Positions 29,182 to 45,431 of a stretch of DNA of 64,000 nucleotides are shown in pieces (the stretch's first letter is position 1; every line of letters starts with the position of its first letter). The translations under genes and the position numbers were made by a program. The notes beneath the pieces were generated by a model, which was given only the letters and a program-made list of their open reading frames with translations, searched no databases and was not told the DNA's origin. This stretch comes from Ruegeria sp. AD91A (GTDB lineage: Bacteria > Pseudomonadota > Alphaproteobacteria > Rhodobacterales > Rhodobacteraceae): assembly GCF_003443535.1 (NCBI RefSeq), contig NZ_CP031946.1, forward strand, positions 2,622,501-2,686,500, given 5' to 3'.

Positions 29182-29257
29182 GCCCCTATAGCTCAGCTGG
29201 TAGAGCAACTGATTTGTAATCAGTAGGTCCGCGGTTCGAGTCCGTGTGGGGGCACCA
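29182..29257 (+). tRNA. tRNA-Thr (anticodon TGT), island integration site
   Basis: A full cloverleaf is present. Acceptor GCCCCTA pairs with TGGGGGC, the anticodon loop is ATTTGTAAT with TGT, the T-loop is TTCGAGT, and CCA is encoded. Its 3' end is duplicated at 44.5 kb, so it served as the attachment site for the element to its right. The tRNA itself is intact. Confidence 0.95.
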
Positions 29258-29258
29258 T
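29243..29258. repeat. Proximal attachment repeat (tRNA-Thr 3' end)
   Basis: CGTGTGGGGGCACCAT covers the end of the T-arm, the acceptor 3' strand and CCA plus one base. It is identical to 44535-44550. Confidence 0.75.
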
Positions 29259-29813
29259 CATATCAATAACTTAGCCTGTATATACACTGGCCATGCACCG
29301 CCCTGTGCTACCCTCGTGCTACCTATGTGCGTTGCGAAACCCAGATTGGATAAACTGCGCGCGCATTGAAAACCCAGTTTCTCCAATCTGGCAGAGCCAA
29401 AAATAGCCAGAGAAAAAAGACAACTTGATTTGAAACTTGGCAGGTTTCGCCAACTGCATACTATACGCTAGCTCAATCAAATCCCTTGCTGGCCATACGC
29501 CATGCAATGTCAGTTTGCTATGCGCCTTCGGTTGGGGCAGAGCTGGCTTACGTTTGGGGCTTCTTGAATTTTGTTACAATCTTCCACGGTGAACGGGTTC
29601 TTTCGCCTTGTGTATGGGGCGGGGGGTCAAAAACTTTGATACCGGGTTAGTGACTTTACCCAAACACTGGATACTTCTCGCGCGGGCTAGGTTTACGTTG
29701 CGTCAGTACTTCCACTAGGCAATTAGGCATCGGCTGGAACTTGCAACTGGATGTTAGCTTCGGACTGGGTTACTCACTTTGCCAACAACCTTGCAAAAGA
29801 AAAAGGGTGAGCA
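29259..29813. other. Non-coding start of the island with a large hairpin
   Basis: No gene is supported in these 555 bases. The main structure is an inverted repeat: CCAGATTGGATAAACTG (29341-29357) faces its complement (29375-29391) with one mismatch and a 17-base loop. The direct repeat GTGCTACC occurs twice just before it. These may be recombination or transcription-control sites of the element. Confidence 0.55.
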
Positions 29814-30704
29814 ATGGCGTTGAGGGACCGAGCATACACTGTATTGATTACCGATGTAGACAACACATTGTTTGACTGGTTTCACGTCTGGCACGCCACT
29901 TTTCGCGCTATGCTGGATCAGATTATTGCCATATCAGGTTTCAGTGAAGCGGAGTTGCTTCCAGAAATTCGCAAAATCCACCAGCAACACGGCACGTCAG
30001 AGTATGCGTTTTTGATCGAAGCCATGCCCTCGCTGCGCCGACGTTTTCCTCACGACAATCTCTTAGAGGTCTTTAAACCTGCAATTGAGGCCTTCAGGTT
30101 CGTGCGCCGCAGAGAATTGAAGCTCTATGACGGGGTTGCGGACACTCTGAGAAAACTCAAGGAACAGGGCGTTCTGATTGTCGCTTACACTGAAAGCCAA
30201 TCATTTTATACATCTTATCGCTTTCGAAAGCTGAACCTAGATGGTCTTGTTGATTATCTTTATTCGCCCCCGGATCATGACTTTCCAGAAGGTCAATCTC
30301 TGCTTTCAATTAGATCCAAACCCGCGAGCGAATACAGTTTATCGCACACTGTGCATAGGAATACTCCAAAGGATGAGTTGAAACCAAACCCTGAGCTTCT
30401 TCTCGACATCATTGAGACGTTGGGTGCCCGCAAGCAGGACGTGTTGTATGTTGGTGATAGTAGGGTGAAGGATGTTGCGATGGCCCAGGACGCTGGGGTC
30501 AGCGATGTTTTGGCTGAATATGGCAGTTCTCACCTGAAGGAGGAATACCAATTACTGGTCAATGTAACGCACTGGACTGATGAAGATGTGCAACGCGAGA
30601 AATTAATTGGAGATCGTGAGGTGTCCCCCACCCACACGCTCAAGAATTCGTACTCCGAATTGCTGCAGCTTTTTCAATTTGAAGAATTCAGGATGAACAA
30701 ATGA
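29814..30704 (+). CDS. HAD-superfamily hydrolase coupled to a membrane protein
   Basis: The 296-residue enzyme carries all HAD motifs: nucleophile and acid in ITDVDNTLFDW (D14, D16), motif II threonine in AYTES (T126), motif III lysine in ELKPNPELL (K190) and motif IV in YVGDSRVKDVAMA (D215, D220). A helical cap lies at about 25-105. The C-terminal 65 residues (THWTDEDVQREKLIGDRE to the end) are an extra tail. The start at 29814 follows AAAAGGGTGAGCA. Its stop overlaps the start of the next gene (ATGA), so enzyme and membrane protein are made together. The substrate is unknown; phosphatase or nucleotidase activity is the usual guess. Confidence 0.85.
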   Translation: MALRDRAYTVLITDVDNTLFDWFHVWHATFRAMLDQIIAISGFSEAELLPEIRKIHQQHGTSEYAFLIEAMPSLRRRFPHDNLLEVFKPAIEAFRFVRRRELKLYDGVADTLRKLKEQGVLIVAYTESQSFYTSYRFRKLNLDGLVDYLYSPPDHDFPEGQSLLSIRSKPASEYSLSHTVHRNTPKDELKPNPELLLDIIETLGARKQDVLYVGDSRVKDVAMAQDAGVSDVLAEYGSSHLKEEYQLLVNVTHWTDEDVQREKLIGDREVSPTHTLKNSYSELLQLFQFEEFRMNK

Positions 30705-31282
30705 CCAAAGACATTGATGACAAAGACCTCGAAATCTGGAAAACGGTAGTGAGCGTCCAGATGCATTTTAATGATCTGGAACTTAGAATTCGAAATTTTG
30801 CAATATTATCTTTGGGTGCAACATTGACCGTCGCAGGTTACTCTTTAAGGGTTGGGAACAATGTAGTGCTTATGGGCAAGGATGTCCCGTTTGCGTCGAT
30901 AGCTTTGACAATCGGGACAATTGTTTGGCTTTGCTTCTGGTTCATGGATCGCCATTGGTATCACAGACTTCTTTTAGGCTCTGTGTATCACGGTATCGAC
31001 ATCGAAACACGTTACGCGAAGATGAGACCTTCGTTGAGCTTGTCTGCTTCAATCAAGAAACAAAGTCCAAACGAATTATTCGGTAGAGAATTGCGATCAA
31101 AGCACCGCCTTGATATTTTTTACTGGATAGTAGCGATTGTTCTACTGGTGGCGGCGCTTGCGCTGATTTCTGTCAGTTTCGCCGTTTTTGTCGCAATTAT
31201 TTCAATTGCCATTGGTTTAATTTACCTCTTTTTTGGTATGGGCTTCTTAAAAAAAGAAAATGCTGTTTCCTCAGGCAGTTGA
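30701..31282 (+). CDS. Four-helix membrane protein, partner of the HAD hydrolase
   Basis: The 193-residue product has a charged cytoplasmic N-terminus (about 1-30), two membrane helices (about 32-50 and 64-83), and a basic loop containing MDRHWYHRLLLGSVYHGIDI. A hydrophobic pair follows near 139-181, with a short tail. The layout of helix pairs around a helical soluble segment recalls two-TM and SLATT-type effector proteins of immune loci, but I see no diagnostic motif. Translational coupling to the HAD gene argues for a joint function at the membrane. Confidence 0.75.
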   Translation: MTKDIDDKDLEIWKTVVSVQMHFNDLELRIRNFAILSLGATLTVAGYSLRVGNNVVLMGKDVPFASIALTIGTIVWLCFWFMDRHWYHRLLLGSVYHGIDIETRYAKMRPSLSLSASIKKQSPNELFGRELRSKHRLDIFYWIVAIVLLVAALALISVSFAVFVAIISIAIGLIYLFFGMGFLKKENAVSSGS

Positions 31283-31392
31283 CATGGTGCAGCTGGCGTC
31301 AAGGCTACCCACAACGGATGAAGTTGCGGCGAAGCAGATAAGTGCAACAGCTGTATGTTTCACGGTTCCTTATTTCGCCAATCAAGATTTGC

Positions 31393-31830
31393 CTATCGGC
31401 AGTAGTTGGCCTGAGCCAACCGTGACCGAGCAGCCCGAGTTTCATATTTCTTGTACCGACCGCCTGAATACCGTGCGCAGTCAAGCGCGTAACCATTGGC
31501 AATCAATACAGCGGCCACATCTTCACTGTTCGCGTAGCAGACCCCGATCATGCGGTCATACGACCTTTCACCATTGAGTTCGCAGGTGACGTTTTTGCGG
31601 TGTACGATCTTGGACGTTGCAGCCTTGGCCTGTTGGCCTGCCTGTGTGCCTAGTTCCATGGCGTCAACGCCGTTAAGCCGGACTTTGACACCTGCAACCA
31701 GGATTGTGTCGCCGTCGATAGCTCGGGCTTTGCCTTCGATTGTTTGGCCAGCGGTGGCCATATTGCCTACCATCAGGGCAGCCGAAACTATTAACCAGAA
31801 CGACTTCTTCACGTCGAACTTCCTATTCAT
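31393..31830 (-). CDS. Exported thermonuclease-family (SNase-like) protein
   Basis: The 145-residue protein has a signal peptide (FWLIVSAALMVGNMATAG) and a staphylococcal-nuclease fold. Its segments include ARAIDGDTILVAGVKVRLNG (calcium and active-site strand), GQQAKAATSKI and ERSYDRMIGVCYA, followed by the final helix region. The arginines and acids used for catalysis appear to be present. Export suggests nutrient scavenging or attack on foreign DNA. It follows a small Cys/His-rich peptide gene on the same strand after 17 bases. Confidence 0.82.
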   Translation of the reverse strand: MNRKFDVKKSFWLIVSAALMVGNMATAGQTIEGKARAIDGDTILVAGVKVRLNGVDAMELGTQAGQQAKAATSKIVHRKNVTCELNGERSYDRMIGVCYANSEDVAAVLIANGYALDCARYSGGRYKKYETRAARSRLAQANYCR

Positions 31831-31847
31831 AAGGCCAACGCTCTACG

Positions 31848-32033
31848 TTAATGGCAGTGATACGGTTTTTTGCCAGCATGACAGCACTGACCCTGCGGAC
31901 TGTCTTTGCGGCACCCGCCACCGTGGGCCACATCTCTTGTTATGGAGAATGTAGGCTGGACCGGCTGTTTTGCATAAGCAGGCACGGCGAAGATCATGGT
32001 TGCAGTGCTGAATACTGTGAACAAGCTTTTCAT
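31848..32033 (-). CDS. Small exported Cys/His-rich peptide next to the nuclease
   Basis: The 61-residue product has a signal peptide (MKSLFTVFSTATMIFAVPAYA) and a mature part of about 40 residues ending GGCRKDSPQGQCCHAG and PYHCH. The clustered Cys and His could bind a metal or form disulfides. The start at 32033 is supported by GGAG at 9 bases; a start five codons upstream is less likely. Similar HCH-ending peptides are, as I recall, seen beside SNase genes, which suggests a functional partner, but no function is known to me. Confidence 0.7.
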   Translation of the reverse strand: MKSLFTVFSTATMIFAVPAYAKQPVQPTFSITRDVAHGGGCRKDSPQGQCCHAGKKPYHCH

Positions 32034-32616
32034 GTGAACAGTCTCCAAAATCCAATATATTACATCGGTTTAAATGGTGACTGTTTATCTATGCTGCTTG
32101 CTTTAGTCGGTCAGTGTTTTTCGATTTTCTGCCATATCTTAAATAGCGGTTCACATATTGAACGTCTTCTTTCGCAGGCAGCCGACGTAAAATGCAAACT
32201 GTACAACGACCGATTTGCGGCTAGAGCAGACCTCCTTTTTTTGATGATGCAGAATGTAAGATGTTAGGCTATTTCGCTGTTCGAGGTTGCACAGCGCGAA
32301 AAATTTTTGGCCTTTCGGCCGCGCGGCTCCAGCACAATTGCGGAGTCGTGCTGGAAAGTTGAGGCCCTTGCTCTCCCTAAAATTGGCAAATGTACAAAAC
32401 AATTTGACCGAATTTCGCATTCGGTAAGTGTCGACGAAGACTATGTCTCCTGCGTCAAACGTAGTTTTGCAGTGTCATAAAAGACGCCATCCGTAGGGCA
32501 GCCCGAACTTAGTTCGCAGCCCTGCTTGAGGACCTTGTGAAATCAGCGTTAGTTAATGTCGAAGGCGCGATTTCGGCCGCGCTGCTAAGACCAAAGAAAA
32601 AAGGAGTTTTGAACTT
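32034..32616. other. Non-coding spacer in the island
   Basis: No gene is supported. A short GGCC-TTTC-GGCC hairpin with an upstream T-run lies near 32308-32322. The rest is A/T-rich and must contain the promoters of the divergent peptide/nuclease pair and the exported protein. Confidence 0.5.
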
Positions 32617-33630
32617 ATGCGCATTATATCATTAATATCTGCTTGTCTCATCTCCACCGCGGCATCTGCAGAGTACATTCGGGGCAGTGACTATGGATTC
32701 AAGCTTTGGGAAGGTGCAGCATACACCGACGACGAGAGCGGTCAGTTCTCCCATTGCGTAGTTTCAGCGCCATACAAATCAGGTGATACCCTTCTAATTT
32801 CTTTTTCGAAGGATAAAACTTTGATAGTCGGCGTTGCAAACGACGATTTCAATTTTGACATCAATAAAAATATTCCCGTTACGATCTACGTGGATCGTAG
32901 GCAACCAATTTATGCAACGGCAATTCCTGTTTCATCGACAATGGTTACGCTGTCGATGCCGAACTTTGACCAGGCGATGCACTACATTCAGATGGGTCGA
33001 ACTATGAAGATCGACGGCCGTCAATTCTCAGGTATTTATGACCTCACTGGTACAAAGGTGGCGCTGGAGCGAACTTATAGCTGTGCAGCTAGCTACTATG
33101 ACTACGCAAGCGCACCGGTCCAACCGGACGCACCGGTCCAGCAGGAAGGATTGAGCAAAACCGCGCTGTTTCAAGTGGCCACCAATATGATCACTTCGAT
33201 TGACGTGTCAGATGCTAAATATTTGAGCGAAGCAGAAATAGAAAACTTGGGCTTTGGGGCGGCCTCGGTGTTTTGGCAGTCTGACGATCTTGGAATCCTG
33301 GCTGGCACACTAACGGCGCACCGACCGACTGGAGACTTAAGGGCAACTGATAGTCAGGATCTGGCGCTAATGTCGGATTTTTGCGAAGGCGATTTTGCCA
33401 GTTCATCGCAGAAGGTCTCGCATGTTGAAGGTGTAAGTCAGCGTGAACTGCGTGGAATTTGCCGTTTGGATGACAGTGAGACGCAAATAATCACGACAAA
33501 AACTGATATTGGTGAGCACACGCTCTACAATATTGTTTTTTTCCTCAACACTGAGAAGGCTGGCGAGGTGAAACGTGCAGAAGCGACCGGCAACATTGCA
33601 ATCCACGCTGCCAGCTACGCCATTGAGTGA
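32617..33630 (+). CDS. Exported protein of unknown function
   Basis: The 337-residue protein has a signal peptide (MRIISLISACLISTAASA). The first domain (about 20-155) is beta-rich with two cysteines (SHCVVSAPY and TYSCAASYY), resembling small invasion/stress-type exported proteins, although no motif is decisive. A Pro/Gln linker (APVQPDAPVQQ) leads to a second domain (about 185-337) with another cysteine pair (SDFCEGDF and RGICRLDD). AAGGAG lies 10 bases before the start. Confidence 0.72.
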   Translation: MRIISLISACLISTAASAEYIRGSDYGFKLWEGAAYTDDESGQFSHCVVSAPYKSGDTLLISFSKDKTLIVGVANDDFNFDINKNIPVTIYVDRRQPIYATAIPVSSTMVTLSMPNFDQAMHYIQMGRTMKIDGRQFSGIYDLTGTKVALERTYSCAASYYDYASAPVQPDAPVQQEGLSKTALFQVATNMITSIDVSDAKYLSEAEIENLGFGAASVFWQSDDLGILAGTLTAHRPTGDLRATDSQDLALMSDFCEGDFASSSQKVSHVEGVSQRELRGICRLDDSETQIITTKTDIGEHTLYNIVFFLNTEKAGEVKRAEATGNIAIHAASYAIE

Positions 33631-34140
33631 TCTAGTTAAAGGCACCTCTTATAGCCTTAGTGGCGAGTCATAAACCAATTGGGGAATGCGTTGACTGTCC
33701 CCAATTGTGTATTGACGGTCGCGCGCTCTGTTTTGAATAAGCGGTCCTTTTTGTCGTGGTTGAAAGTCTTTACGTGATGCTTCTTTCCTTGGCGCATATT
33801 TCACCGGAAGAATGCCCCCTTTGCAAGTTGTTCGTGAAAGCCCAAAGGGCCAGAACGATCCCACTTGCTCCAATATTCACTCCCTTGTTCAGGCGTTCTG
33901 ATTACTAAGTTGTCGGGAAACCTAAAAATGCAAATTCATCAGAGAGACGGCTGGGCTATGAGATCCCAATTTGGTCGTTGGCGACGTTGGCGACGTTGGC
34001 GACGTTGGGGAAAGTGGGGAGATCAGTGCCGTAACGAAAGCCGGGTCAGTTTGCAGTTCTCAAACTGATGACCGGTGAGGATACGTTAGCCTGTGAGAAA
34101 CTTGCAGTCCGCGGAGTGCAGTTGTCAGGAAAACTTTCGA
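33631..34140. other. Non-coding spacer with a 9-base tandem repeat
   Basis: No credible gene is present. The only structure is the tandem GTTGGCGAC array listed separately; short frames across it encode Trp/Arg-rich repeats and are not protein-like. Confidence 0.5.
33977..34003. repeat. Three tandem copies of GTTGGCGAC
   Basis: Three exact 9-base units lie in direct order, followed by a partial copy. The array is in a non-coding spacer between an exported protein gene and the large hydrolase gene. A slippage-prone minisatellite is the simplest reading. Confidence 0.85.
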
Positions 34141-37017
34141 CTACTGAACTGGCAAAGACAGCTTCGCACGCAGCCTATCTAGGTTAAAATTGGCATCCAT
34201 TTCACGAAAGAGCGGAATATTCCTACCTCGTACGTGAAGGCAGGGTTGCTCACATTCCTCTGATTGCCCGACGAACCAAAAACCGAGGCGATCTTGCGTC
34301 AGCACGGTCGTTTCTTGAACATAGTCGGGAAGGGGTAGCCATCCAAGGAAGAGACCGGTTTGTGCATCGAGTACGTGTACCTTGTCGTAGCCATATGCGG
34401 CGACTAATCCCGCGGTTGCGGAAACAGCAAGATTTGGTGTCCAAGGTTCCCCGAAGTAGGGAGAGAGCACGAGTGGTGGTGCATCACCTTCAGCAAGTTC
34501 CGTTGTCCAAGATGCGATACCACTTTCAATTGCTACCGCTGATACCGAAATTGCTTTCGACGGCAACCGTAAGAGCTGTTCTACATCGTATAGATCGACA
34601 GAACCATAAAGGTGTGAGGGTGGTTCATCTTGCGTAATTACGACAACAGTGTCGTCGTTCAAGAAGCGGCCAGCAAGAAACCTATTTCCATCTGGTGGAC
34701 TTATTTGTCCTTCACGTTCACAGCCTCCCATGCCCACACACTCGAAAATGAATGCTTGCCTGGTGGAAACGGCAAGCATTTTGCTTGCTTCAGAAGTGAG
34801 GTCACCATCAATAATGTCGGCATCTGGTTTTCCCCGAATTGGCACACTGGAAAAAGCGATTAGATCTTCTTCAATAGAAAAGGCTTCTATTCCTTCTTGG
34901 TTATCTCCCCCGCTCAGAGCGAGCAAAAAACTTCCGTCATCCGAGAAAATTGGCAGAGTTCGGTTGTAGAAATACTGTTCATTGGTATTACCAGTAAGGT
35001 ATGCGCAGCGTGGCATATTGGGGCTTATTTGCACGCACGAATATTCTGATCGCCCCGCATTCCCGATGTTTTCAACCGTCAACGCTACTAGCTTGTCCCC
35101 TTTTTTGACAAGTTCGCTGTAATACCACAGAGGGTGGTTTTGGAACCACGGATCCTCAGCCCCCTGTTTAATGTAATCGGCGTGGTTTTCTATTTGAGGG
35201 TAGTGCTTAATTACTTCCCAATCATCGTTAGAGTCTGACATCCATCGCTCTTCGTTGGCCCTTGCCCAAGCTAGCATATTAGCCAGGATTTTTGTCTCGT
35301 CAGATTTGAGTTGATCAACGGCCTTTGGGTTAGGCATTCCCTCTGATGGAATGCCTTCGCCAGCCGTACTGTCTGGTTCATATTTGGTTTTCAACGAGGG
35401 GTATTTAAGTGTTGAAACAGGCTCGAATTGAGGGTCTGGCCCGATAGAATCTGGGACGTGCCAGACTTCGTGAGCGTCGATGCTGAAGAAATCGTAGACA
35501 CCCAATAGCGCGCGCAACTGTTCTCGAACTGCTTCGGCTTCTGCCTCTTGCATCGCAAAATATGTTTCTTCATCAGGGTAACTGTCTTGATTGGCTTCCT
35601 TTTTTTCCAGATGCATCCAATATTCTTTCGAATTTGAAGTTAAAGGAATTGTTTTTACCACCTCATATGTAGACCCTCCGGTCGGCCCGTAGTGAGTTCC
35701 GAGCAGCAAAGCTGTTTCGCCGTCACTGCTCACGTGAATAGTCGGTTCCGAGTTGATGCGTGTATCAGCCTCGTAAATTCGCGTACCCATGTGCCACACG
35801 GACAAAAGCCCTGTTTCTGATAGGTTAATTTGGGTGGAGTTATCGTAGGTTCTTGCAGCATAGACTGCCGCCCAGTCTTCCAATTTTTTGATTGTATTTC
35901 TCTCAGAAAGGTACGTCGAGCCTAGCCACACAAAGGTTTTACCCTCAAATTCTCTTAGCAAGTTTTCAGGCGACTCTAGTTGAACTGCCATAGCAGTTGC
36001 TCGCCTGGCAGCCATTTTTGGATCTATCCATCCGTTCCAATTCTCGGGCGCTCGAAACTCTGCCCGATGCGTCTCTATGAGGCTCCAAGCATCAAGGAAC
36101 ACTCGTAGTGCCCCTATGGTGTCGCCTGCTCGATAAAGGTTGGCACCTAGATGAGAAGTTGCCTTAATTGTTTCAATTGAAAGCTCATTCGCTCGTGCGA
36201 CTGCAAGTTTCTCGTTCTGTGATGCGTCCAACCAAAGATAAGCAAAGACCCCGCCAATGACTGAAACAATGATGCCATAGATAGACACCGTAAAGGCTGC
36301 ACCGTTCTCTCCAAGTGTTCGAATAACCCTCTCCGATAACGAAGGAGATGCAGGACGACTATCATGTCGTGCAATTGGAGCGTCTTCTAAAAGCAACGGT
36401 GCCCAGTGTTTCCTCATGAAATGATTGTCGTCATCCTTCCCTAAGAAGTAGCCGCTATGGCCAAGATCAAAGTATCGATTCTGAAATCTTGAACTTTGAA
36501 AGCCGTGAAGTCCAAGACGACCAGCCATTCCAACACCAAAAACTAGAAGGGTTAGCAGAAGCACTCCGTCGCGAGTTCCGCATTCGTTAATAATCCGCTG
36601 GACAGGCCGGTTTTCACCGCAAATTTTCGAAATGTTAGTATCAGGCGACAACACGCTTCCACAAAGGACTAGCGAATTTATCCTGACATTCTCCTGAGAC
36701 TCTTCATGCAACAACGCGTTAGTGGCGAGGTATGTACCAAAACTGTGCGCTACGATGTCAACGCGGTCGTATTTTGAGAGTTCCAAGCCATGAAGCAGCT
36801 GAGATCGAAACCGTGCAACGGCAATCTTTCGAAGAAATGGAACGATAAACGAAAACAGCGTGAAGAAACCATACGTATAATTTAGAAAATCAAATTCGAT
36901 TTCTTTCGCATCCGCGTCGCTTTCGAGGATTTTTTCTAGCCTATCTTGCCACCGACCGTATGTTCTGATGCCGTGCACAGTAATGATCGCGTGCTTTTTC
37001 ATCCTGAACGACCTCAT
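34141..37017 (-). CDS. Large alpha/beta-hydrolase-TM-beta-propeller protein
   Basis: The 958-residue product has an N-terminal alpha/beta hydrolase domain (about 1-215). Its oxyanion motif is ITVHGIRTYG, the nucleophile elbow VAHSFGTY (Ser92), and DLGHSGYF contains a likely catalytic histidine (His187). A single membrane helix follows at about 241-264. The rest, about 690 residues, is beta-rich with WD40/quinoprotein-like blades, for example IHVSSDGETALLLG, PIFSDDGSFLLALSG and AYGYDKVHVLDAQTGLFLG. The start is uncertain: ATG 37017, ATG 37002 or TTG 37044, none with a strong binding site. The layout (hydrolase effector, membrane helix, propeller sensor) suggests a membrane-bound immune or signalling protein. 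That is inference only. Confidence 0.8.
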   Translation of the reverse strand: MRSFRMKKHAIITVHGIRTYGRWQDRLEKILESDADAKEIEFDFLNYTYGFFTLFSFIVPFLRKIAVARFRSQLLHGLELSKYDRVDIVAHSFGTYLATNALLHEESQENVRINSLVLCGSVLSPDTNISKICGENRPVQRIINECGTRDGVLLLTLLVFGVGMAGRLGLHGFQSSRFQNRYFDLGHSGYFLGKDDDNHFMRKHWAPLLLEDAPIARHDSRPASPSLSERVIRTLGENGAAFTVSIYGIIVSVIGGVFAYLWLDASQNEKLAVARANELSIETIKATSHLGANLYRAGDTIGALRVFLDAWSLIETHRAEFRAPENWNGWIDPKMAARRATAMAVQLESPENLLREFEGKTFVWLGSTYLSERNTIKKLEDWAAVYAARTYDNSTQINLSETGLLSVWHMGTRIYEADTRINSEPTIHVSSDGETALLLGTHYGPTGGSTYEVVKTIPLTSNSKEYWMHLEKKEANQDSYPDEETYFAMQEAEAEAVREQLRALLGVYDFFSIDAHEVWHVPDSIGPDPQFEPVSTLKYPSLKTKYEPDSTAGEGIPSEGMPNPKAVDQLKSDETKILANMLAWARANEERWMSDSNDDWEVIKHYPQIENHADYIKQGAEDPWFQNHPLWYYSELVKKGDKLVALTVENIGNAGRSEYSCVQISPNMPRCAYLTGNTNEQYFYNRTLPIFSDDGSFLLALSGGDNQEGIEAFSIEEDLIAFSSVPIRGKPDADIIDGDLTSEASKMLAVSTRQAFIFECVGMGGCEREGQISPPDGNRFLAGRFLNDDTVVVITQDEPPSHLYGSVDLYDVEQLLRLPSKAISVSAVAIESGIASWTTELAEGDAPPLVLSPYFGEPWTPNLAVSATAGLVAAYGYDKVHVLDAQTGLFLGWLPLPDYVQETTVLTQDRLGFWFVGQSEECEQPCLHVRGRNIPLFREMDANFNLDRLRAKLSLPVQ

Positions 37018-37619
37018 TGCTTTGTCCAGTTCGGAGACTAGCAAGTATTAGATTTTTGGTCTATTTGGACGGTGAGTGCAGGAATTTGAATCGCTCCGGA
37101 CGATCTTTCACCAAGCTTATACCAACGTTCCATTTCAATAGTTACATCGCCTGTGCATGCGACTTTTAGGCTCCAAGCCGTATCTCAAAACTCAGAGTAC
37201 GGTCATTTTGAAGCGCCCTTGAAGACGCTGGAGCCAACAGCGACGTTGCTCGCAATTTACGTATAGTCATTTCGATTGTTTGTATGGGATAAGTTGGAAT
37301 GAGTTAGTGAGGGTTGGAAAAGGCCGACGGCTTTGTTCGGATTTGTGTCTCAAGGCCCAGCGCTTTGCTTATCAACAAGTTCACCAACTTCTGAGTGATC
37401 AAGTTAACCAGACGATTGCTGCGGTTTGGCCGGGCAACAGTTTAGACACACATTTACTTGAGCCAGTTGAACCAATGAGTGCTTGTTTCGGCCCCAGCGC
37501 GCTACTTCGCCCTGGGCCAGCGCCAAAATCATCCTGCGACCAAAACTTTCGGTAAGATTAACGCCATCTTGTATCTTGCTCCCTGTTACGTACTTCAAAG
37601 ACAGACGAAGGAGACCAAA
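37018..37619. other. Non-coding spacer in the island
   Basis: No gene is supported in these 600 bases; frames present have no ribosome binding site and improbable composition. It must carry the promoter of the large minus-strand gene and that of the small plus-strand pair. Confidence 0.5.
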
Positions 37620-37796
37620 ATGACAATGCCAACTGAAGAACACTTCGAGATTGAGAGAGCCATTGAGGCCTATTTTCGAGAGCAATGTTCACTGCAAGAG
37701 CGGATCGCTGCTGAGTTGGTAACAGTCAGTAAGCAGCAAAAGGCGCTACTGGCGATCTTTGGTCAGGCATCTGAGAAACTAGGGAAAAGCAGATGA
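37620..37796 (+). CDS. Small helical protein of unknown function
   Basis: The 58-residue protein (MTMPTEEHFEIERAIEAYF opening) is predicted to be mostly helical and amphipathic. AAGGAGACCAAA is a strong ribosome binding site and decides the start at 37620. Its stop overlaps the next start (ATGA). The size and pairing suggest a phage- or plasmid-derived small operon. Confidence 0.65.
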   Translation: MTMPTEEHFEIERAIEAYFREQCSLQERIAAELVTVSKQQKALLAIFGQASEKLGKSR

Positions 37797-38008
37797 TTGG
37801 ATTGCTGCGTGGTTTGATGGGGATGGGGGTCGTCATGACAGTGAACCTTAATAGTCGTTTGAGTGAGTCACTAAGAGGGGCGGGGGGCCGGAAAGTACCG
37901 GCCCGAAGTGCCGCAAATAGAGCGGCTGCGATTGGGATGCTGACGGCTTGGGCCATGATGGCGCGGGCCAAGCAGGACGTTGCGTTTTACAGCCGAATGG
38001 GGATGTAG
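37793..38008 (+). CDS. Small basic protein of unknown function, coupled to the preceding gene
   Basis: The 71-residue product is translated by ATGA coupling. It is basic and Ala/Met-rich, with weakly hydrophobic ends (MIGLLRGLMGMGVVM and AAIGMLTAWAMMA). It might associate with the membrane, or act with the 58-residue partner as a two-component toxin-like pair; this is speculative. Confidence 0.5.
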   Translation: MIGLLRGLMGMGVVMTVNLNSRLSESLRGAGGRKVPARSAANRAAAIGMLTAWAMMARAKQDVAFYSRMGM

Positions 38009-38010
38009 AA

Positions 38011-38226
38011 TTAGGGATTCATGGCGTCGTTGATAATCTTGTCAATGTCGATGCCATCATTGGCCAGCCCTGAGTTTTCGGGGTTCCAGCGGTCGCCCAT
38101 TTCTTCGAGCAGCTCAACCATGCGTTTCCCTGTTATCGCTTGCGCTGCTTTCCACCAAGCGGATGAACAGCGGCCAAGGTGAGCAATGGAATCTTCGATT
38201 TCTGAGAGGGGTTTTTGATAGGTCAT
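38011..38226 (-). CDS. Small soluble protein of unknown function
   Basis: The 71-residue protein starts MTYQKPLSEIEDSIAHLG after AAGGAGGACCGCAAA, an excellent ribosome binding site. The composition is that of a small soluble helical protein with a Trp pair (AWWKAAQ). It converges on the preceding plus-strand gene with 2 bases between the stops. Confidence 0.65.
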   Translation of the reverse strand: MTYQKPLSEIEDSIAHLGRCSSAWWKAAQAITGKRMVELLEEMGDRWNPENSGLANDGIDIDKIINDAMNP

Positions 38227-38285
38227 TTTGCGGTCCTCCTTGTTTTACCTGACAGGCAAATGGGAGGGTAAATGCAAGGAAACGT

Positions 38286-38308
38286 AAAAAAGGGGGCTGA
38301 CTGCCCCC
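38286..38308 (-). terminator. Rho-independent terminator on the minus strand
   Basis: On the minus strand GGGGGC-AGTCA-GCCCCC is followed by six T. It ends transcription of the small gene at 38465-38680 before the next small gene. Confidence 0.75.
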
Positions 38309-38464
38309 GGCGCTGTTGGGACTCCATCGTGAACATTCCGCTCAGAAAAGAAGGAGCTTGAATTCGGGATGATTTCTGACATTTGCAAAATGCCGGGGTT
38401 GGCGAGACATTTGCCCTGCCTCGGGAATGCCCCCAGCAATGAGCCAAAGCTGGGGGGTAAGGCA

Positions 38465-38680
38465 TCACATGCCTTTCATTTTGAAAGTATGATCGTGATG
38501 CTCAGATCCGTCGGCCAACGGCTCTAGAAGGCTGCATTTCTTAGCATACAGGCGGCGTAAATGGCGCTCACTGTAAAAGAGGTCGGTCCATCCGGAGGCT
38601 TCCTCGGTGGCGTCAAATGCCTTCGCAATCTCGTCATCGATATTGTCGAGGTCTAGTAGATCGTATTGATATTCACACAT
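38465..38680 (-). CDS. Small acidic protein of unknown function
   Basis: The 71-residue protein starts MCEYQYDLLDLDNIDDEIAK at 38680, with AGGAGCAAAT upstream. The N-terminal half is acidic, and the C-terminal end is His-rich (GSEHHDHTF). The longer in-frame reading upstream has non-coding composition, so the internal ATG is preferred. A terminator lies 160 bases downstream. Confidence 0.6.
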   Translation of the reverse strand: MCEYQYDLLDLDNIDDEIAKAFDATEEASGWTDLFYSERHLRRLYAKKCSLLEPLADGSEHHDHTFKMKGM

Positions 38681-38982
38681 ATTTGCTCCTGGTTTTGTGG
38701 GAATGTGGTGGGCTGCACGCGATGATTTTCTAGTTTCTGGTAAGGCTGCGGGAGATTGTGAATCTGCCCTTGCGTGCATGGTTGCCTTCGATTGTGCCTT
38801 GGGGGGCATCGTAGGTTCTGCGTGAAAGGCGGCCGCCGAACTCCCGCCCTCTCTCGGGTTTTCGAACGTTGTCCACAAGCCGACCTCGAAAAACTCTTTG
38901 GGAAGGCTCAGATTTTCCGCAGTATGCGGCTATCCAATAGCCGGGGAATGGGGCGTTCCCCTTGGGGCATTCCATTCGGGGT

Positions 38983-39401
38983 GAAGGGGCGAGTGTTTAC
39001 GGCGGCGATGAGCGTATTGAACAGGTCCGTGAGTGGCTGGTGAAGGCAGGGCTTTAAGCCAGAAAAACACTTCAGACAGCCTCAGGGAGTCCCTCAGGGC
39101 GCGCGTTGAAGGGCGTAAGGGTGACGAGCCTCTGTTCCCTTCTCTTGGCCGTGACGGAGGCCCTACGGCTGCCTCTGCGGCGCTGATGAAAGCGGTCAGG
39201 AAGAACACTGACGACAAGCGCATGAAGGTCCACGGACTGCGCCACAGGGCGAGCGACAAACTGAGAGACGCAGGGGCACCTGTTGAAGTTCGTCACGGGT
39301 ACCTAGGGCATTCTGTTCAATCGGTTGCTGAGAATACTTATGGTGGACGTGAGGCGCGGCTTAGAGAGTTCGCTAGGTGGGGCGTGAAGGCTGGGCTCTA
39401 G
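38983..39401 (+). pseudogene. Remnants of tyrosine recombinase C-termini
   Basis: Two successive integrase tails can be read. The first (about 38983-39056) gives SVYGGDERIEQVREWLVKAG and a stop. The second (39033-39401, another frame) contains MKVHGLRHRASDKLRDAG (the HxxR box), EVRHGYLGHSVQSVAENTYG (the His and the catalytic Tyr) and a matching tail. The N-terminal and core-binding parts are missing, so neither can be active. They mark one or more past integrations in this island. Confidence 0.7.
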
Positions 39402-39413
39402 GCTAAGCACAGT

Positions 39414-40421
39414 TCAAGAAAAGGTGTGGTAAAATGTTTGAAGTTGATCCGTGCCGCCCTGTGTGGACATGGCATAGATACCCAGAAATGTCGGCGAATC
39501 TTTGACAAACTTTATTTGTACCCCGAAGTTCTCCGAATTGCTGATTGCACGCGCTTGATCACTAGTTATTCTTGCAAAAACATGAACGTCGGTTCCGTAC
39601 GAAAACCGTGAACACGCCTTTGAGATATCAAAATTTTGTTCTTCTCCGTTCACGGTTATCTCTACTACGCCAAAACTCGTCAGTTCATCGTGTCGGTTTT
39701 GCGCTTCAATCACTGCCCAGAAAAAGAAACCAGCGTTTTTGGTGAAACCCAACATGACCTTGTGACGGCCATAGATGGAGTCTCGTTCACCGCGCACGTA
39801 GATCATATTACCTCGCGCTTGGACATCCCAAGAAACGTCTGTTTGTCCACCAGTTACAACCCGAAGTTCTTTCAGTCGTTCCTCGCCAATAAGGTAAATG
39901 TCCTTGGCGTCCGTTGCGGAAGACAGTTCTAGAAACTCAGGCGAAATACCCATGTCGCTTACGTAAGAGGCAATCCTTGCAGACAAGATTTGGGACAGAC
40001 CTGCGTTTTCTGGAAAGGGGTTCTTAAGTGAGAATTGATGCACCCCAAACTCGCTTCCGTTAGAAAAGTATCTGAGACGCCCACCAAGGTAAATCATGGT
40101 TGCCGCGCTCATACATTTCCCAGCTACTCGTTTTCGCGGTACCAGCGGGTTTGTTGGGTCAGGTTCTTCCAGAAAGAAACAACCTATGTCAGTCCAAAGC
40201 CCGTACTCACGTATCCTTCTGCCAATGCCGATTGCCGCTTCCAAGTCGCCACCTAAGGAATCGATGTAGATGGTCATGTGTGAGGGTGGGCTGTGCGTGT
40301 CTAGGAACTCTGAGAACTTGCTATCATCGCCATATTTGATGGGACCGATGGCATTGATGCAGAAGAACCCGCCCAACATCTTTTCGAGTTCATTTTGGGG
40401 TTCTGTATAGTGAAAATCCAT
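39414..40421 (-). CDS. ClpP/crotonase-fold serine protease-like protein with extra C-terminal domain
   Basis: The 335-residue protein has an N-terminal ClpP-like domain. Strand-turn YIDSLGGDLEAAIGIGR, the nucleophile-like serine in GKCMSAATMIYLGG and the histidine in FGVHQFSL match the ClpP catalytic layout. There is no signal peptide. The C-terminal half (about 195-335) is a beta-rich domain that I do not recognise. The ATG at 40421 is preferred over a TTG two codons earlier. Stand-alone ClpP-like proteins of this kind occur in defence and phage contexts; the role here is unknown. Confidence 0.72.
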   Translation of the reverse strand: MDFHYTEPQNELEKMLGGFFCINAIGPIKYGDDSKFSEFLDTHSPPSHMTIYIDSLGGDLEAAIGIGRRIREYGLWTDIGCFFLEEPDPTNPLVPRKRVAGKCMSAATMIYLGGRLRYFSNGSEFGVHQFSLKNPFPENAGLSQILSARIASYVSDMGISPEFLELSSATDAKDIYLIGEERLKELRVVTGGQTDVSWDVQARGNMIYVRGERDSIYGRHKVMLGFTKNAGFFFWAVIEAQNRHDELTSFGVVEITVNGEEQNFDISKACSRFSYGTDVHVFARITSDQARAISNSENFGVQIKFVKDSPTFLGIYAMSTQGGTDQLQTFYHTFS

Positions 40422-42065
40422 GCACAAATTTGCTCTCTAATTTATGAAGACAATAGCCTAAGGGTACTAAGCACTACAGTACGGCACACGTAGAAATTGC
40501 AACCTTAGCCACTTTATTCATTCGATCAGATAGAGATCGCTAGCGCAGATTTCTACCGAGAAAGTCTAAAGAGAAACCCATTACCTGAACTCAAGTAGGC
40601 ATCGCGAGGGATGAATGCCTTCGTCGAAAGCAAGTTTTCGGCAACGTTGGCATTGACCATGAAAGTACAGGTTACCCTAAGCACGCGCTCCAAGAATCCA
40701 GCGGCGCTATCTGTCGGTCAACGCATGAAACTTGTTTATACCCCACAAGGCATCTCTCAGGGGTGCAGTGTGATTTATAATAGAGGGCGTTAGGTCTTGT
40801 TCTCGTCAGGCTGACCTTTCTAGTGTCCCCTCAGGCTCACCGTAAGCCAACCCTAGAGGTCACCAGAAAGAAGTCGGGAGAGTTGAACTCTCCTAGGGGT
40901 CAATTTTACCTATATAAATTAAGCACTTAAGGACCTGTTCTCGTTAGATAAAAGTTTTAGTTCAATCCCTTCCTAAGGGCACCATCAGGGGACACTCAAG
41001 GGTCGCATTCGCTCCGAAAGACCAATTGAGGATGGATGATAGCTTTCCATCACTTCCGGCTGATACCTCATCACCATGTTCGAAAGAACAGGTAAGTCTG
41101 CACCTTAAGGCTAGCACCGGATAGGGCACCTGAATAATTCAGGGATACCATCAGGGGGCACCTTAGAGCCATTCGGCTTTGGTTGGTTGATGAGAGTGGT
41201 CGAACCTTAACCCACCATCACACACCCCTCAGGAAGCCTTAGAGCAGGCCGACAGGGTACCTTAAGTGGAAGCATTCAGGGTCATCGACCTGCGGAACCT
41301 ACAGGTGAGCTTAAGGGTTGACCGTAGGGGTAGCCCCAAAAGGTCCTGCTAAGGTGTTGGTGAGGCTGGTTAAATGCTCATTTCTTTCATGGTCTTTACC
41401 ACCATCACGTTCCTTATTTTTGGCGAAAAATTGTGAGTGGCAGAGATAGATATAGATGCCGCGCATACCCCCCGGTGCCCCCCATCATTGCCTATTCGCG
41501 CAGCAATCAGGGGACATCTCAGCCCACTTTTTGAGGCCGAACGTGGGCACCATGTCACCGCGCGCGTCACCGCACTAATACCGGACCCCCTTGTTTCATT
41601 GGTCTTCGCGCGAGTATGCCGAGGATTGCAAATCTCCGGACACCGCTTGATGTGTCCTAATCGTGTACCACTGGGCACCATCGGGGAAGACTTATAGCAG
41701 TCTCAGGGAGTTGGTCTGGTGGTCTTTTTCCTGAGCGGCTGGGCATCTGTGCAATGGGGCGTACAGACCATTACACCTTCAGCAGACACCTAAGCCACCA
41801 CCTCAGGCACCCATCAGGTTCCCGTAATATAACACCTTTAGGTATCACGTTTGGTGATCGACCTGCGTCATTCCTTCAATCACCGTGAAGTCGCGCCATC
41901 AAGTAACGCGCAGGGAGCAGTGTAGGCTCACTCTCAGACCATGGCGACAGGGTAGCTTGACGGCTAACGCTATGCGCGCTCGGTCGCTCCGCTGCTCCGC
42001 ATATCCCCAGTTAACGAGATGTAAGCATAAGGTGCCCCTTTGGTTACGAGGGCTACAAGCTACCC
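40422..42065. other. Long non-coding region with recurrent CCTNAGG-like words
   Basis: No gene is supported over 1.6 kb. From about 40820 to 41850 short words of the type CACC-TTAAGG, CACCATCAGG and CCTCAGG recur (for instance at 40829, 40971, 41101, 41147, 41226 and 41800). A palindrome GGAGAGTTGAACTCTCC sits near 40877-40893 and resembles a tRNA T-arm on the minus strand. The region may hold a decayed RNA cluster, an origin-like repeat region or recombination sites. I cannot decide which. Confidence 0.5.
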
Positions 42066-42266
42066 GTGAAGGTGCCCGTGAGGTTGAAGCCGACGACTTA
42101 TGTCTTGCTCGACATAGTCCGCGAACGCTTTGCCGAAGCACACCCAGAAATTCCGTTTGAACTTGGGAACCAAGAGATTGTCGCTGGTCTCTTGGCGAAG
42201 GGTTTGGAGGCCATCGCTGCCTCTGAAGACGACGTATTCAGCGACACACTCCCGACAAAAGGATAA
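42066..42266 (+). CDS. Small putative ribbon-helix-helix protein
   Basis: The product of 66 residues or fewer (GTG start at 42066, or GTG at 42072) begins KVPVRLKPTTYVLLDIVRER. A beta-strand followed by two helices is typical of ribbon-helix-helix DNA-binding proteins of the CopG/Arc type. It lies 4 bases before the next gene and may regulate it. The start codon choice is uncertain, because the GAGGG signal is weak. Confidence 0.55.
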   Translation: MKVPVRLKPTTYVLLDIVRERFAEAHPEIPFELGNQEIVAGLLAKGLEAIAASEDDVFSDTLPTKG

Positions 42267-42270
42267 GACC

Positions 42271-42750
42271 ATGAACACAAAGCGTATCGTTGTGGCGAAC
42301 CGTCCCCACCGCAATCAGACGTCATCCACCGAGTATTGCGGTGACGACTTCTGGAAAATCACTAAGGCGCAGGATGAAGACCTGTTTTCCTTCGAATGGC
42401 GCGACCACAAGCAAGCCCCTTGGAAGGTGATTGTAAGTCACGTTGAACCTGTCACTCTCTACAACCGTGTCCGCGTTCACTTCGCCGCTCAGGCAGGCTT
42501 TGATGCTGAGCAAGTGGACCTGCGCGTAGACATTTGCAACGCCCTGCTGAGAACGATCTACGGCAACGCCAAGGGTCACTTCAGGCACATGAAAGCAGCC
42601 AACTCTGGGCCGTCCTTAGAAGAACGCCTGAACGCTGAACTATCGGCTGGCAAGATCACTCCTGAACAAGTCGAGCAGACTAAGCAGGACGTCGACAAAC
42701 GCAAGCGCCGGGACTTCCGTCGCATCGCCCGAGAACAAGCACACGCATAA
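42271..42750 (+). CDS. Hypothetical protein downstream of the ribbon-helix-helix gene
   Basis: The 159-residue soluble protein follows AAAAGGATAAGACC. The first 110 residues look like one compact domain (DDFWKITKAQDEDLFSFEW, then NRVRVHFAAQAGFDAEQVDL). The C-terminal 45 residues are a charged helix (ITPEQVEQTKQDVDKRKRRD). No family was recognised. It is the second gene of a small operon ended by a hairpin. Confidence 0.65.
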   Translation: MNTKRIVVANRPHRNQTSSTEYCGDDFWKITKAQDEDLFSFEWRDHKQAPWKVIVSHVEPVTLYNRVRVHFAAQAGFDAEQVDLRVDICNALLRTIYGNAKGHFRHMKAANSGPSLEERLNAELSAGKITPEQVEQTKQDVDKRKRRDFRRIAREQAHA

Positions 42751-42764
42751 CACGCCACTGATGA

Positions 42765-42816
42765 GGCCCTGAGCAGCTACTACGGTAAAACTAGTGGTAG
42801 TCGCTTGGGCCCTTTC
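42765..42816 (+). terminator. Imperfect terminator hairpin
   Basis: GGCCC, then AGC and ACTAC on the left arm pair with GTAGT, GCT and GGGCC on the right arm. The stem is interrupted and is followed by CTTTCTGTG. It lies just after the stop of the small operon. Confidence 0.5.
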
Positions 42817-43131
42817 TGTGTTGAGCGCGCACCCGGCAGGCAAGACCGAAAGGAGGCAGCCCACTGGGTCACCGAGTGCGCGCGAGTGCGGCGCTTTTCA
42901 TCAACACGCCGCAAACCCAGCGACGATTGAATAACATCCGCTGTCGCGGCGATGTTCCGAAGAAAAAGGTGAAGTGGTGGGAGATTTAGGTGGAGTCAAA
43001 TTACTCGCACAAGTCAACGAGATATTGTCGTCGTAACCCTTGAAACCAGTCGAGAAATTGAAACGATCCAAAAACAAGCGTCAATGTGATACTATAGAGG
43101 TGTTGAAAACTATCATTTGAGGGTAAAAATT
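42817..43131. other. Spacer before the Tat-exported orphan
   Basis: No gene is supported. GCGCGCAC and its complement GTGCGCGC flank about 45 bases (42824-42890), forming a second, larger hairpin after the terminator. The remainder is A/T-rich and probably contains the promoter of the next gene. Confidence 0.4.
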
Positions 43132-44061
43132 ATGTCTATCTGTAGACGCAGTTTATTGAAAAGTACCGCTAGCGTAGGCGTTTTGGCCTCAGCAGGGGGC
43201 GCAGCACTCTGGGCCGATGCCGTCAGTGCGCAGACAATAACAGACTCTGGTTTCGATATCCTCAACTATCAACCCATGGTTGCCGACCCATTCACTTGGG
43301 CGTGGTTCGGGACGCAACTTGCTAATGGAGCAGCGGCTTGGGTAGGCGGACAAATTCTAAATGAACTTTTGGGAAATGGTGGCGTCGATTTAGAAAGCCT
43401 CGTCAAGAACATCGCCGAAGCTGTCCGGGTGGTAGTTCGTCAGGAAATCGAACGTGCCACGTTGCTACGCCTTGCCGCTGAGCATCGTGCCCTACAAAGC
43501 CTGTTCCAGATTTATGCCACAGGATGCGACAGAGGCATATGGAACGAGTTGATTACTGGCTCAAGTACAGTAATTGAGGAGCTTAGGGGTCTTGGCTTCC
43601 CAGCGCATTACTTGTTCTTATCTGCGATGGCTCAACACATCGTGCTTATTCAAGAGGGCTTTGGGCGAACGCCGGAGACAAAAGATTTGTTGACTCCGTT
43701 GATCGAGCGGGCGTCAGGCCATCTCGACAGATTGCACTCAGAATGGCGAGTTTGGCACAACTCCAGATACAGCATCTCTAGAACAGTTATTCCGGGCGAC
43801 CGTCCGCCCGATGGTCCGCCAAACGACCGAGTTCTTTGGCACACAATGAGAGATGGCGTGGTTTATGCTACCTATGAAAGGGGCCGACCTAGAGACGACG
43901 CGATTACGACAATGACCCACATCAGAGAAGTCGATTGGGATAGCGATACGTTTCCTAGGTTCGTAAAGCCGTCCATCGAAATACAAGCGCAGTGGGGACG
44001 TTTGTTGGGTGGAAGTTTTGAGGACGATCCGCAGAACCCATATCAACGGGTATGTAGGTAG
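43132..44061 (+). CDS. Tat-exported protein of unknown function
   Basis: The 309-residue protein has a twin-arginine-like leader (CRRSLLKSTASVGVLASAGG, cleavage near SAQ). The mature part opens with a hydrophobic, possibly membrane-active segment (FTWAWFGTQLANGAAAWVGG). Long helices follow (LESLVKNIAEAVRVVVRQEI), then a C-terminal Arg/Asp-rich region. The start at 43132 has GAGGG 8 bases upstream. The helical, amphipathic character would suit a pore-forming or lipid-binding protein, but this is a guess. Confidence 0.65.
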   Translation: MSICRRSLLKSTASVGVLASAGGAALWADAVSAQTITDSGFDILNYQPMVADPFTWAWFGTQLANGAAAWVGGQILNELLGNGGVDLESLVKNIAEAVRVVVRQEIERATLLRLAAEHRALQSLFQIYATGCDRGIWNELITGSSTVIEELRGLGFPAHYLFLSAMAQHIVLIQEGFGRTPETKDLLTPLIERASGHLDRLHSEWRVWHNSRYSISRTVIPGDRPPDGPPNDRVLWHTMRDGVVYATYERGRPRDDAITTMTHIREVDWDSDTFPRFVKPSIEIQAQWGRLLGGSFEDDPQNPYQRVCR

Positions 44062-44610
44062 AGCTGCGTCCATTGCCTAAACTGCTTCGAAATCAACGCG
44101 CGTAGGTATTGAGGCACCAGAAAGTTGAGGTTTTGCCCTCTCATATGCGGTGATTTGTGCCACCAAACCGATCATGTTTGAAAGCGCGTTTGAAACGTCC
44201 GCGGCAGCGTGGCGAAACCACTTGCTGCTTTGATGCAGCTGACGGCGGGCCTACTGATATGGCATCAGTTTGGCGGCAACCACTAAGTTGGTTGTAGAAT
44301 TCGCCGAATTCACAACAAAGCGCGCGAAGCACGTCTGGTAAGACACGATCTGCCGCCATAGGTCTTGCTCTTTTCTTTGGGAGAACTTGATCAAGTGGTA
44401 TGTGTTTAGTCTGCCAGATTAGTACACAGAAACCCGTGTCATTAGGACACAGTAAGACCTAAAGAAGGGGCAAAGACTATTCTAAAAACCTGAAAGTAAT
44501 ACATTTTCTGAGCTGGTGCTTTTTGGCTTGAAATCGTGTGGGGGCACCATAGAATCAGATAACTCATTGGTATAGCTCCAAATTTTAGCCACTGCTAGGA
44601 GCCGTAGACC
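44062..44610. other. Right end of the island with the distal attachment repeat
   Basis: No gene is supported. The sequence up to 44534 has no clear structure. The 16-base copy of the tRNA-Thr end lies at 44535-44550 and is followed by ATCA/ATAAC, faintly similar to the bases after the tRNA. Confidence 0.5.
44535..44550. repeat. Distal attachment repeat
   Basis: CGTGTGGGGGCACCAT is an exact copy of the tRNA-Thr 3' end at 29243-29258. It is not part of a tRNA here, as no T-arm or other helix precedes it. Confidence 0.75.
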
Positions 44611-45431
44611 ATGTCGGAGACCGTTTCGCGCCCTTTCACCTTCGTAAAAGACGGTGTTTTCTACTTCAGCCGCCGCATCCTGAAAGAATTGAGAAACCAC
44701 TACACGTCGCCTCGGATCGCGTATTCGCTGCGGACAAAGTCGCCCAAGATCGCTGAAGCCAGAGCCAGAAGAGCAGCTGGACGAGTACTGGTATCACCTG
44801 CGTTGTCGTGACGCAAACCTACCCGGCAAGCACATGCTGAGGCTACAACGCACAACTGACACATCAGTCGTTGACCAGCCGCTTTCTGTCTCCTCGTCAT
44901 CTGTTCTTTTGTCGGAGGCGGTGGGGATTTACCTTCAGCTGAAGGGGAATGGTCGCCCCGTAACCTTTCGTCGAGCTGCTGAGAGGGCCTGTGGCTACGT
45001 CATTGACGCCTGTGGAGACAAGCACCTCGATGCCTACACCAAAGCAGACGCCAACGCATTCCGAGATGCTCTGATTGCTCGTGGTCTTGCTGGCAGCAGC
45101 ATGACGCGGGTCTTCGGTACCGTCAGGGCCGTAACGAACTTCGCTGCAAGCGAACAGGGCCTCACCCTGAACAACCCCTTTGCAGGCGTCTACTACGACA
45201 GATCGGCTGGCGTCTCCGATCGCACTTCTGTTCCTGCTGACGCCTTGGTTGTAGTTCAAGATAAGTGCAGAGAGCTGGATGACGATCTTCGCTGGCTCGT
45301 GGCGTTGGTGTCAGATACAGGAATGCGCTTGGCCGAAGCCGCCGGGATGACAAGAGCGGACTTTGTTCGTGGAGAGGACGGAGTGCTGACGGCTCGGGTT
45401 CGCCCCCATCCGTGGCGTAGCCTAACGCATC
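44611..45431 (+). pseudogene. Tyrosine-family integrase, frameshifted and cut off by an insertion sequence
   Basis: The ATG at 44611 opens a typical integrase N-terminus (FVKDGVFYFSRRILKELRNH). After ARRAA the frame is lost near 44775 and continues in the +1 frame (EEQLDEYWYHLRCRDANLPG). The core-binding domain then follows, then the start of the catalytic domain (LVSDTGMRLAEAAGMTRADF, with the first catalytic Arg). The frame loss fits deletion of one copy of a short AGAGCAGC-like repeat. The C-terminal box with His, Arg and Tyr is missing where the IS element begins. It was probably the integrase of an element at tRNA-Thr. Confidence 0.8.

Follow-up and report, generated by a model that had tools for sequence, protein, structure and literature searches.

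Stacked mobile elements at a tRNA-Thr gene of Ruegeria sp. AD91A and a putative family of two-arc integrative elements with inverted attachment sites

In the genome of Ruegeria sp. AD91A, the 3' end of a tRNA-Thr gene is followed by a low-GC block and then by a second copy of that end without a tRNA, which raises the question of what element this second copy belongs to. We analysed a window of 64,000 nucleotides around it (contig NZ_CP031946.1 of assembly GCF_003443535.1, positions 2,622,501 to 2,686,500, forward strand; coordinates below are those of the window), in which an earlier sequence-only reading had described a 15.3-kb island between exact copies of the tRNA end. Our joint reading, to which we give a probability of roughly 0.7, is that two elements, island A and the relic of an element B, are stacked at the tRNA gene, that B belongs to a family of elements divided into two arcs by inverted attachment (att) sites, and that this family would use an amplification mechanism like that of Flp, the recombinase of the yeast 2-micron circle. 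Loci and genomes are numbered L and G where they have to be told apart.

The tRNA-Thr(TGT) gene, an integration hotspot, is predicted by ARAGORN at 29182..29257 on the + strand. Its last 15 bases and one more form the proximal copy of the 16-mer CGTGTGGGGGCACCAT, here called the core O (29243..29258, +); the distal copy stands at 44535..44550 on the same strand, both have 0 mismatches, and ARAGORN finds no tRNA at the second, just as had been claimed. In dinucleotide shuffles of the window, matches at up to two mismatches averaged 0.09 and 0 of 100 shuffles reached two. Throughout the genome (4,405,563 bp in 2 contigs) the 16-mer occurs at only these two sites at up to one mismatch, with 0 control matches; the random occurrence elsewhere that had been named as a point against an island is not seen. 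The GC content is 49.4% between the two 16-mers, 56.7% to their left and 53.9% to their right.

The distal O is the left attachment core of element B and is directly followed by an arm, P (44551..44610, +). A profile of 59 such arms matches the window at 44535-44621 with E=3.3e-15, the next best match in a 124-kb region having E=0.1, and an arm site, CCGTAGACCA, lies at 44602-44611 with 0 mismatches, beside the integrase start codon. The integrase itself is a relic (44611..45424, +; PHROG 1, E=4e-17) with its residues in two frames (1-47 at 44611-44751, 57-275 at 44771-45424), and its C-terminal ~138 aa were not found beside the remaining pieces in the 124-kb region. It is adjoined by an IS4/5-type insertion sequence (45437..46265, +) with the terminal inverted repeat GTCAGGAT and two open reading frames (ORFs) that match Pfam DUF4096 (4.5e-18) and DDE_Tnp_1 (1.2e-17). 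Element B is thus dead, its integrase frameshifted and truncated, an insertion sequence adjoining and its right half not found; what the window holds, a relic in itself, is a remnant of the integrase arc only.

What B once looked like can be read from its relatives. At a locus in another genus (L062), a 64%-identical integrase and its arm stand directly behind an intact tRNA-Thr(TGT), and from the core through the arm to the start codon there is a gap-free alignment with 44535-44613 of the window. Together with the arm profile, this alignment identifies the distal 16-mer as the left attachment site (attL) of B, parted from the tRNA by island A. Furthermore, the B integrase fits the A1 alignment family, with 74-80% amino acid identity over its remaining parts to L101, its nearest complete relative, which sits at a tRNA of the same type. 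Two mobile elements are therefore stacked at tRNA-Thr(TGT), and since A sits between the tRNA and B, one O stays with the tRNA and the other with B. Element B is probably the older and arrived first. Where the sequence-only reading had left a choice between two adjacent elements and a rearranged one, the arm profile and the arrangement in L062 speak for the former; the integrase that it placed just outside the distal copy is indeed there, with its start codon 60 nt after the copy, but it is broken. Two parallels for stacking were noticed: the intact element of L101 is immediately followed by a degenerate O-P, and in the congener G030 a 2.8-kb insert, judged by eye, separates the tRNA from sequence that adjoins the tRNA in G010.

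The surviving piece of the B integrase matches 45 of 394 family genomes, its own included, at E<=1e-10 and with identities from 100% down to 27%, and a tRNA (Leu, Phe, Thr, Arg or Met) is present in the locus for 19 of the 29 relatives from that search. In L062 the core and arm occur again, inverted, behind the integrase, and an inverted core-arm repeat was found in 10 of 30 loci, counting the window locus (L058). A scan of contigs for relatives, of which the best 80 of 288 loci were taken (going by their titles, largely Rhodobacterales; L107, L110, L161 and L167 are among the exceptions), showed an inverted O-P copy, full or partial, of at least 40 nt in 65 loci; the copies measure 43-163 nt, 61 of them at an identity of at least 96%. 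The repeat usually starts 14-17 nt inside the adjoining tRNA and ends near the integrase start, and the inverted copy follows within 100 nt of the integrase in 41 loci, the farthest lying 3.8 kb away. Within a locus the median arm identity is 100% (41/59 exactly identical), between loci it is 59% (1711 pairs), indicating that the two copies evolve together. Among the 15 loci without an inverted copy, the upstream sequence is missing in two (L132, L167) and the contig ends 3-724 nt after the integrase, too early for a more distant copy to show, in nine (L096, L100, L130, L140, L141, L146, L156, L166, L170), L100 showing 39-41 nt of the inverted copy before its end. Many draft contigs from L093 to L172 break off within a few hundred nt after the integrase or the inverted arm, and such assembly breaks may hide these elements in public genomes. 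IMG/VR gave only 3 relatives. At 12 further tRNA-Thr loci, from the same genus as the window, no inverted repeat of at least 60 bp at 90% identity or more was found.

In most of 36 aligned loci, the inverted O is followed by a conserved block, P'. It contains two arm sites like TGGTCTACGG, the sequence reverse-complementary to the site that precedes the integrase. In L101, L119, L154 and L160, four of the 14 loci whose downstream sequence exceeds 8 kb, P' occurs again, inverted, directly before the direct core; the other ten may be longer, broken or different. Among 20 further genome stretches, some from genomes already sampled, 13 have inverted arms (L175 at 77%), five of these with an inverted P' (L174, L176, L177, L178, L181). 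The resulting nine complete elements, 4,018 to 12,819 bp long and bounded by direct cores of 16-25 bp, follow one plan, O-P-int-P-O(inverted)-P'-replication arc-P'-O. Each shows one A1-type integrase among the ORFs scanned for recombinases; seven of them adjoin an intact tRNA, four lie in one single-contig genome (G105) and one in a 4.6-Mb contig.

When these elements are closed into virtual circles, all nine show one continuous inverted repeat (P', O, P) of 265-3252 bp and 95.9-100% identity, so that two inverted, complete att sites part the integrase arc from a second arc. One of them, L160, is a clean, precise insertion, as its joined flanks align unbroken to those of two congeners, G470 (753 columns, 89.9%) and G471 (817 columns, 84.2%), and no such integrase was found at these two loci. 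An empty site for L177 in the same two genomes was rejected, since the first 110 nt after O are not above shuffles and the match belongs to the flank of L160. In the 12.8-kb element L181, a perfect 3180-bp inverted repeat within the second arc doubles a 633-aa gene. Taken as sequence, the relatives define a family of tRNA-targeting integrative elements with the integrase arc between inverted O-P copies and the second arc, which mostly holds replication genes, between inverted P'-O copies, all within direct O copies.

Island A (29259..44534), the low-GC accessory block from the tRNA to element B, was compared with the tRNA-Thr locus of other Ruegeria genomes. Using the tRNA and the preceding 1 kb as query gave matches in 60 of 61 genomes, often with the tRNA as the only matching part, and 12 loci were taken of the 36 congeners in that search. 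A second tRNA copy of 45-50 bp lies 2.8-15.5 kb downstream in 6 of these 12, a share that is biased by the choice of G036, G024, G011 and G008 for an already visible second tRNA end, and G030 has an 18-bp copy. Other sequence stands downstream of the tRNA in the 12 loci, and the empty site that the sequence-only reading had looked for in relatives was not found in clean form at any of them. The closest relative examined, G029, has no second tRNA copy within the stretch covered, and its flank rejoins that of the window genome only 79.7 kb to the right of the tRNA (26 kb in G029). The description of the 15.3-kb island is confirmed with two corrections: it has an integrase remnant inside, and the variable region runs on past 44.5 kb. 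Of the proteins of A (ORFs of at least 60 aa), only the SNase-like nuclease (74% in G008, 42% in G011) and adjoining small G008 ORFs were matched in the 12 loci; at the DNA level there are short matches in G008, G036 and G024, those to 42.9 and 44.2 kb being in G036 and G024. Across 54 congener genomes, the left end of A (555 nt) matches G008 and, over 71 nt, G016, and the right end (473 nt) gives one 43-nt match, in G024.

No intact integrase of its own was found in A, only a C-terminal remnant of a tyrosine integrase at 39033..39401 (+; Pfam PF00589 E=2e-7, PHROG integrase 1.6e-8), the integrase at 44611 lying outside and being broken. Between this remnant and the C-termini of B-type integrases the resemblance is weak (30% identity, E=0.001-0.002). 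Just upstream of it, ~38990-39057 reads by eye like another integrase C-terminal end, and such tandem ends at 38990-39401 suggest an older third element within island A.

Island A may have been moved by an integrase of its own, since lost, or by a B-type integrase acting in trans. At somewhat under even odds, A inserted at the tRNA core by means of an unrelated, since lost integrase, B being incidental and supplying the second 16-mer. The remnant inside A would be in keeping with this, as would the profiles of P and P', which give no significant match at A's ends beyond the core. The same origin is favoured by the G008 island, which has a left-end stretch (29305-29416, 94%) and the SNase block in common with A and carries a distal integrase of another type (Pfam Phage_integrase plus Arm-DNA-bind_3). 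It is harder to reconcile with the length of the tRNA copies in congeners, 45-50 bp in 6 of 12 rather than 16 bp (the integrase was examined in G008 only), with the direct cores of 16-25 bp in the nine complete elements of B's family, and with the first 46 bp after the tRNA, which are unmatched between A and G008. The other route, that A, flanked by two O sites, was a passenger moved in trans by a B-family integrase, we regard as a tentative proposal with about one chance in three: the exact 16-bp O at both ends is within the family's core length, and the left-end O with what follows it, 30 nt in all, can be aligned to B's O-P (87%, E=6e-4, the core making up most of the match), but the missing P and P' matches count against it, as does the present state of B's integrase.

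Three assignments for A were rejected in the process. Its ends do not qualify as B-family arms by the profiles just mentioned; it is not a G008-type island, the left-end stretch and the SNase block being all that is in common and no such integrase being present; and a P4-type integrase for A was discarded because the G008 integrase matches the 124-kb region only via a stretch of 15 residues read from the tRNA end. The G008 island (L034:5284-13215), which we take to be of the P4 type, targets tRNA-Thr as A does, shares sequence with A's left part including the SNase gene, and has Toprim and AAA genes; unlike A, it has a distal 451-aa Arm-DNA-bind_3 integrase and a 47-bp distal tRNA copy. No inverted repeat of at least 60 bp was found at its locus.

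What the second arc encodes in B's relatives bears on how the two-arc elements might work. Four protein families were recognised there: a PrimPol and D5 helicase in L154 (Pfam Prim-Pol/D5_N 1e-12 and 3e-19, PHROG DNA primase 2e-112); a ~1079-aa protein with a DNA-primase-like N-terminus in L160 and relatives (PHROG 1e-21); a ~640-aa protein without a Pfam match and with at most a weak PHROG match; and a ~490-aa protein (PHROG 4756), whose L119 member weakly resembles phage RNA polymerase (E=0.001). A model of the third (634 aa) shows a likeness to XPD/DinG-type helicases (Foldseek 2.7e-10, TM score 0.32), the model being weak (predicted local distance difference test score, pLDDT, 63.9; predicted TM score 0.39); that of a 497-aa arc protein was unusable (pLDDT 36.8), and sequence searches of PDB gave no useful match. 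In 21 loci with at least 1.4 kb past the inverted arm, 13 match one of the four families clearly and two hold fragments, while L113, L124, L137, L145, L163 and L169 gave no match to them. Beside the primase of L160, L174, L176 and L177 lies a TPR-repeat protein of 664-983 aa, with a methyltransferase domain detected in L160.

In each of the four families, the replication gene runs with the integrase in some loci and against it in others. In the primase-like family it is on the same strand (+) in L160 and L177 and on the opposite strand (-) in L174 and L176; these four arcs are 86-92% identical in DNA or protein, with the order opposite between the pairs. The L101 family is + in L101 and - in L094, L099, L109, L111, L114 and L117, with a + fragment in L112 and one copy each way in L181. 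For the L119 family the orientation is + in L119, L128 and L178 and - in L121, and for the PrimPol family + in L154 and - in L142, one locus each way.

We propose that the integrase would recombine the two outer O sites and thereby release a circle on which two complete P'-O-P att sites would stand inverted to each other. A primase, helicase or polymerase-like protein would come from the second arc, and integrase-driven inversion between the two sites during replication would turn one fork and lead to rolling-circle amplification of the kind proposed for Flp and the 2-micron circle; the excised circle would then re-integrate at a tRNA 3' end. Excision as a circle, inversion by the integrase instead of RecA and Flp-like amplification are steps that we infer.

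Several observations weigh against this joint reading. In the 124-kb region, neither an inverted O-P copy nor a P' block of element B was found, and second-arc proteins gave no match apart from the insertion sequence transposase. Among the relatives, the inverted copy is truly absent in four loci with more than 1 kb downstream (L107, L134, L158, L161), the inverted P' is seen in only 4 of 14 and 5 of 13 loci, and no intact tRNA stands beside the left O of L154 and L181 (ARAGORN predicts none at L181). The mixed orientation of the replication arc is weaker than it looks, because assemblies can misorient a segment between long inverted repeats, and RecA-dependent exchange would give the same picture. 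For the integrase arc, 51 loci have the tRNA on the 5' side of the integrase and one (L149) on the 3' side, with 13 having it beside neither. Two equivalent sites would be expected to give a mixed orientation; the 51:1 bias argues either that they are not equally used or that one orientation is selected. The stretch L149:1-1473 is the only flipped integrase arc, with a tRNA-Leu on the integrase 3' side, and its contig starts at the repeat.

Inverted recombination sites beside a tyrosine recombinase commonly mark phase switches, and the inverted arms might accordingly serve phase variation of the integrase or the replication gene. We consider this unlikely, because the repeats of the complete elements are so long (265-3252 bp) that the sequence adjoining the genes would presumably stay the same after a flip; that a flip would alter so little beside the genes argues for a topological role instead. 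Less likely still is entry as single-stranded DNA, for which the inverted arms would pair within one strand to form a double-stranded att site, as integron attC sites do: near-perfect inverted arms around the integrase gene could allow such folding, but the repeat extends into the second arc by as much as thousands of bases, beyond what a fold-back core would need, and the loops, at 1-11 kb, are large. That the second 16-mer arose by chance or is a general tRNA-end word has next to no standing, given the shuffles, the two copies in 4.4 Mb and the arm P directly after the distal one.

The remaining content of island A is varied. At its left lies a candidate defence pair, a HAD-type hydrolase (29814..30704, +; PADLOC model 'Hydrolase', E=1.6e-95) with a membrane partner (30701..31282, +; 'Hydrolase-TM', E=1.6e-33), and a literature search for the name of this unit (29814-31282) found no paper. 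It is followed by the SNase-like nuclease (31393..31830, -) and a 967-aa protein (34141..37044, -) with a weak N-terminal match to alpha/beta-hydrolases, below the Pfam cut-off. Beyond the integrase remnant lie a ClpP-like protease (39414..40427, -; PHROG 1827, E=5.5e-5), a segment at 40780-42060 where a GGGCACCATCAGGGG-like word occurs three times along with further short repeats, and a protein without a family match whose leader looks twin-arginine-like by eye (43117..44061, +). To the right of element B, much of the flank at ~46-64 kb, including 47.6-59 kb, is found as a block elsewhere in relatives. A ~130-bp repeat at 47565-47705 has related copies near 63952-64058, at 84.5 kb of the extended region and in relatives.

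How do the two-arc elements compare with known systems? Genomic islands and accretion elements at tRNA genes combine a tyrosine integrase with insertion at the tRNA 3' end and direct core repeats, several of them standing in tandem at one tRNA. The family of element B is like them in all four respects and unlike them in an added inverted att site between integrase and cargo, which creates two arcs. In the 2-micron circle, two inverted sites likewise divide the circle into two arcs, an arrangement computed here for the virtual circles of B's relatives. We know of no tRNA integration by the 2-micron circle and of no primase or helicase of its own; the bacterial elements, known here from their sequence alone, differ from it in site-specific integration and complex arms. 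Both have a tyrosine recombinase, and for Flp/FRT replication-linked amplification has been proposed (PMC3737535). The strand-biased circularizing integrative elements (SE) of Gammaproteobacteria carry intA, tfp, intB and srap between imperfect repeats of 13-19 bp (PMC10214605). Like the two-arc elements, they are integrative, with tyrosine recombinases and inverted repeats at their ends (PMC10214605); the two-arc elements differ in their one A1-family integrase, near-identical repeats of 265-3252 bp and mostly Rhodobacterales hosts. Measured by the repeats given in that description, identity with SE was rejected, those here being far longer and 95.9-100% identical.

For the window itself, the analysis settles the owner of the second tRNA end and shows that tRNA-Thr stacks elements here. 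One integrase facing two mirror-image att sites around a replicon is a layout that we did not find described for tRNA-integrating elements, in a search of open-licence papers that is no proof of the novelty of inverted-att two-arc elements. At about the same tentative level as the in-trans origin of A, we suggest that the tRNA genes of Rhodobacterales may host a widespread, undescribed class of elements whose circle would carry two inverted att sites between an integrase arc and a replication arc. Their integrase might also act as a Flp-like invertase that turns replication forks and amplifies the circle, making them a bacterial counterpart of the 2-micron circle, with element B as a fossil. 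A small natural two-arc element, the 4.0-kb L101 of Leisingera aquaemixtae CECT 8399, makes this testable. If inversion does drive replication in these elements, bacteria would have evolved the amplification trick of the 2-micron circle independently.

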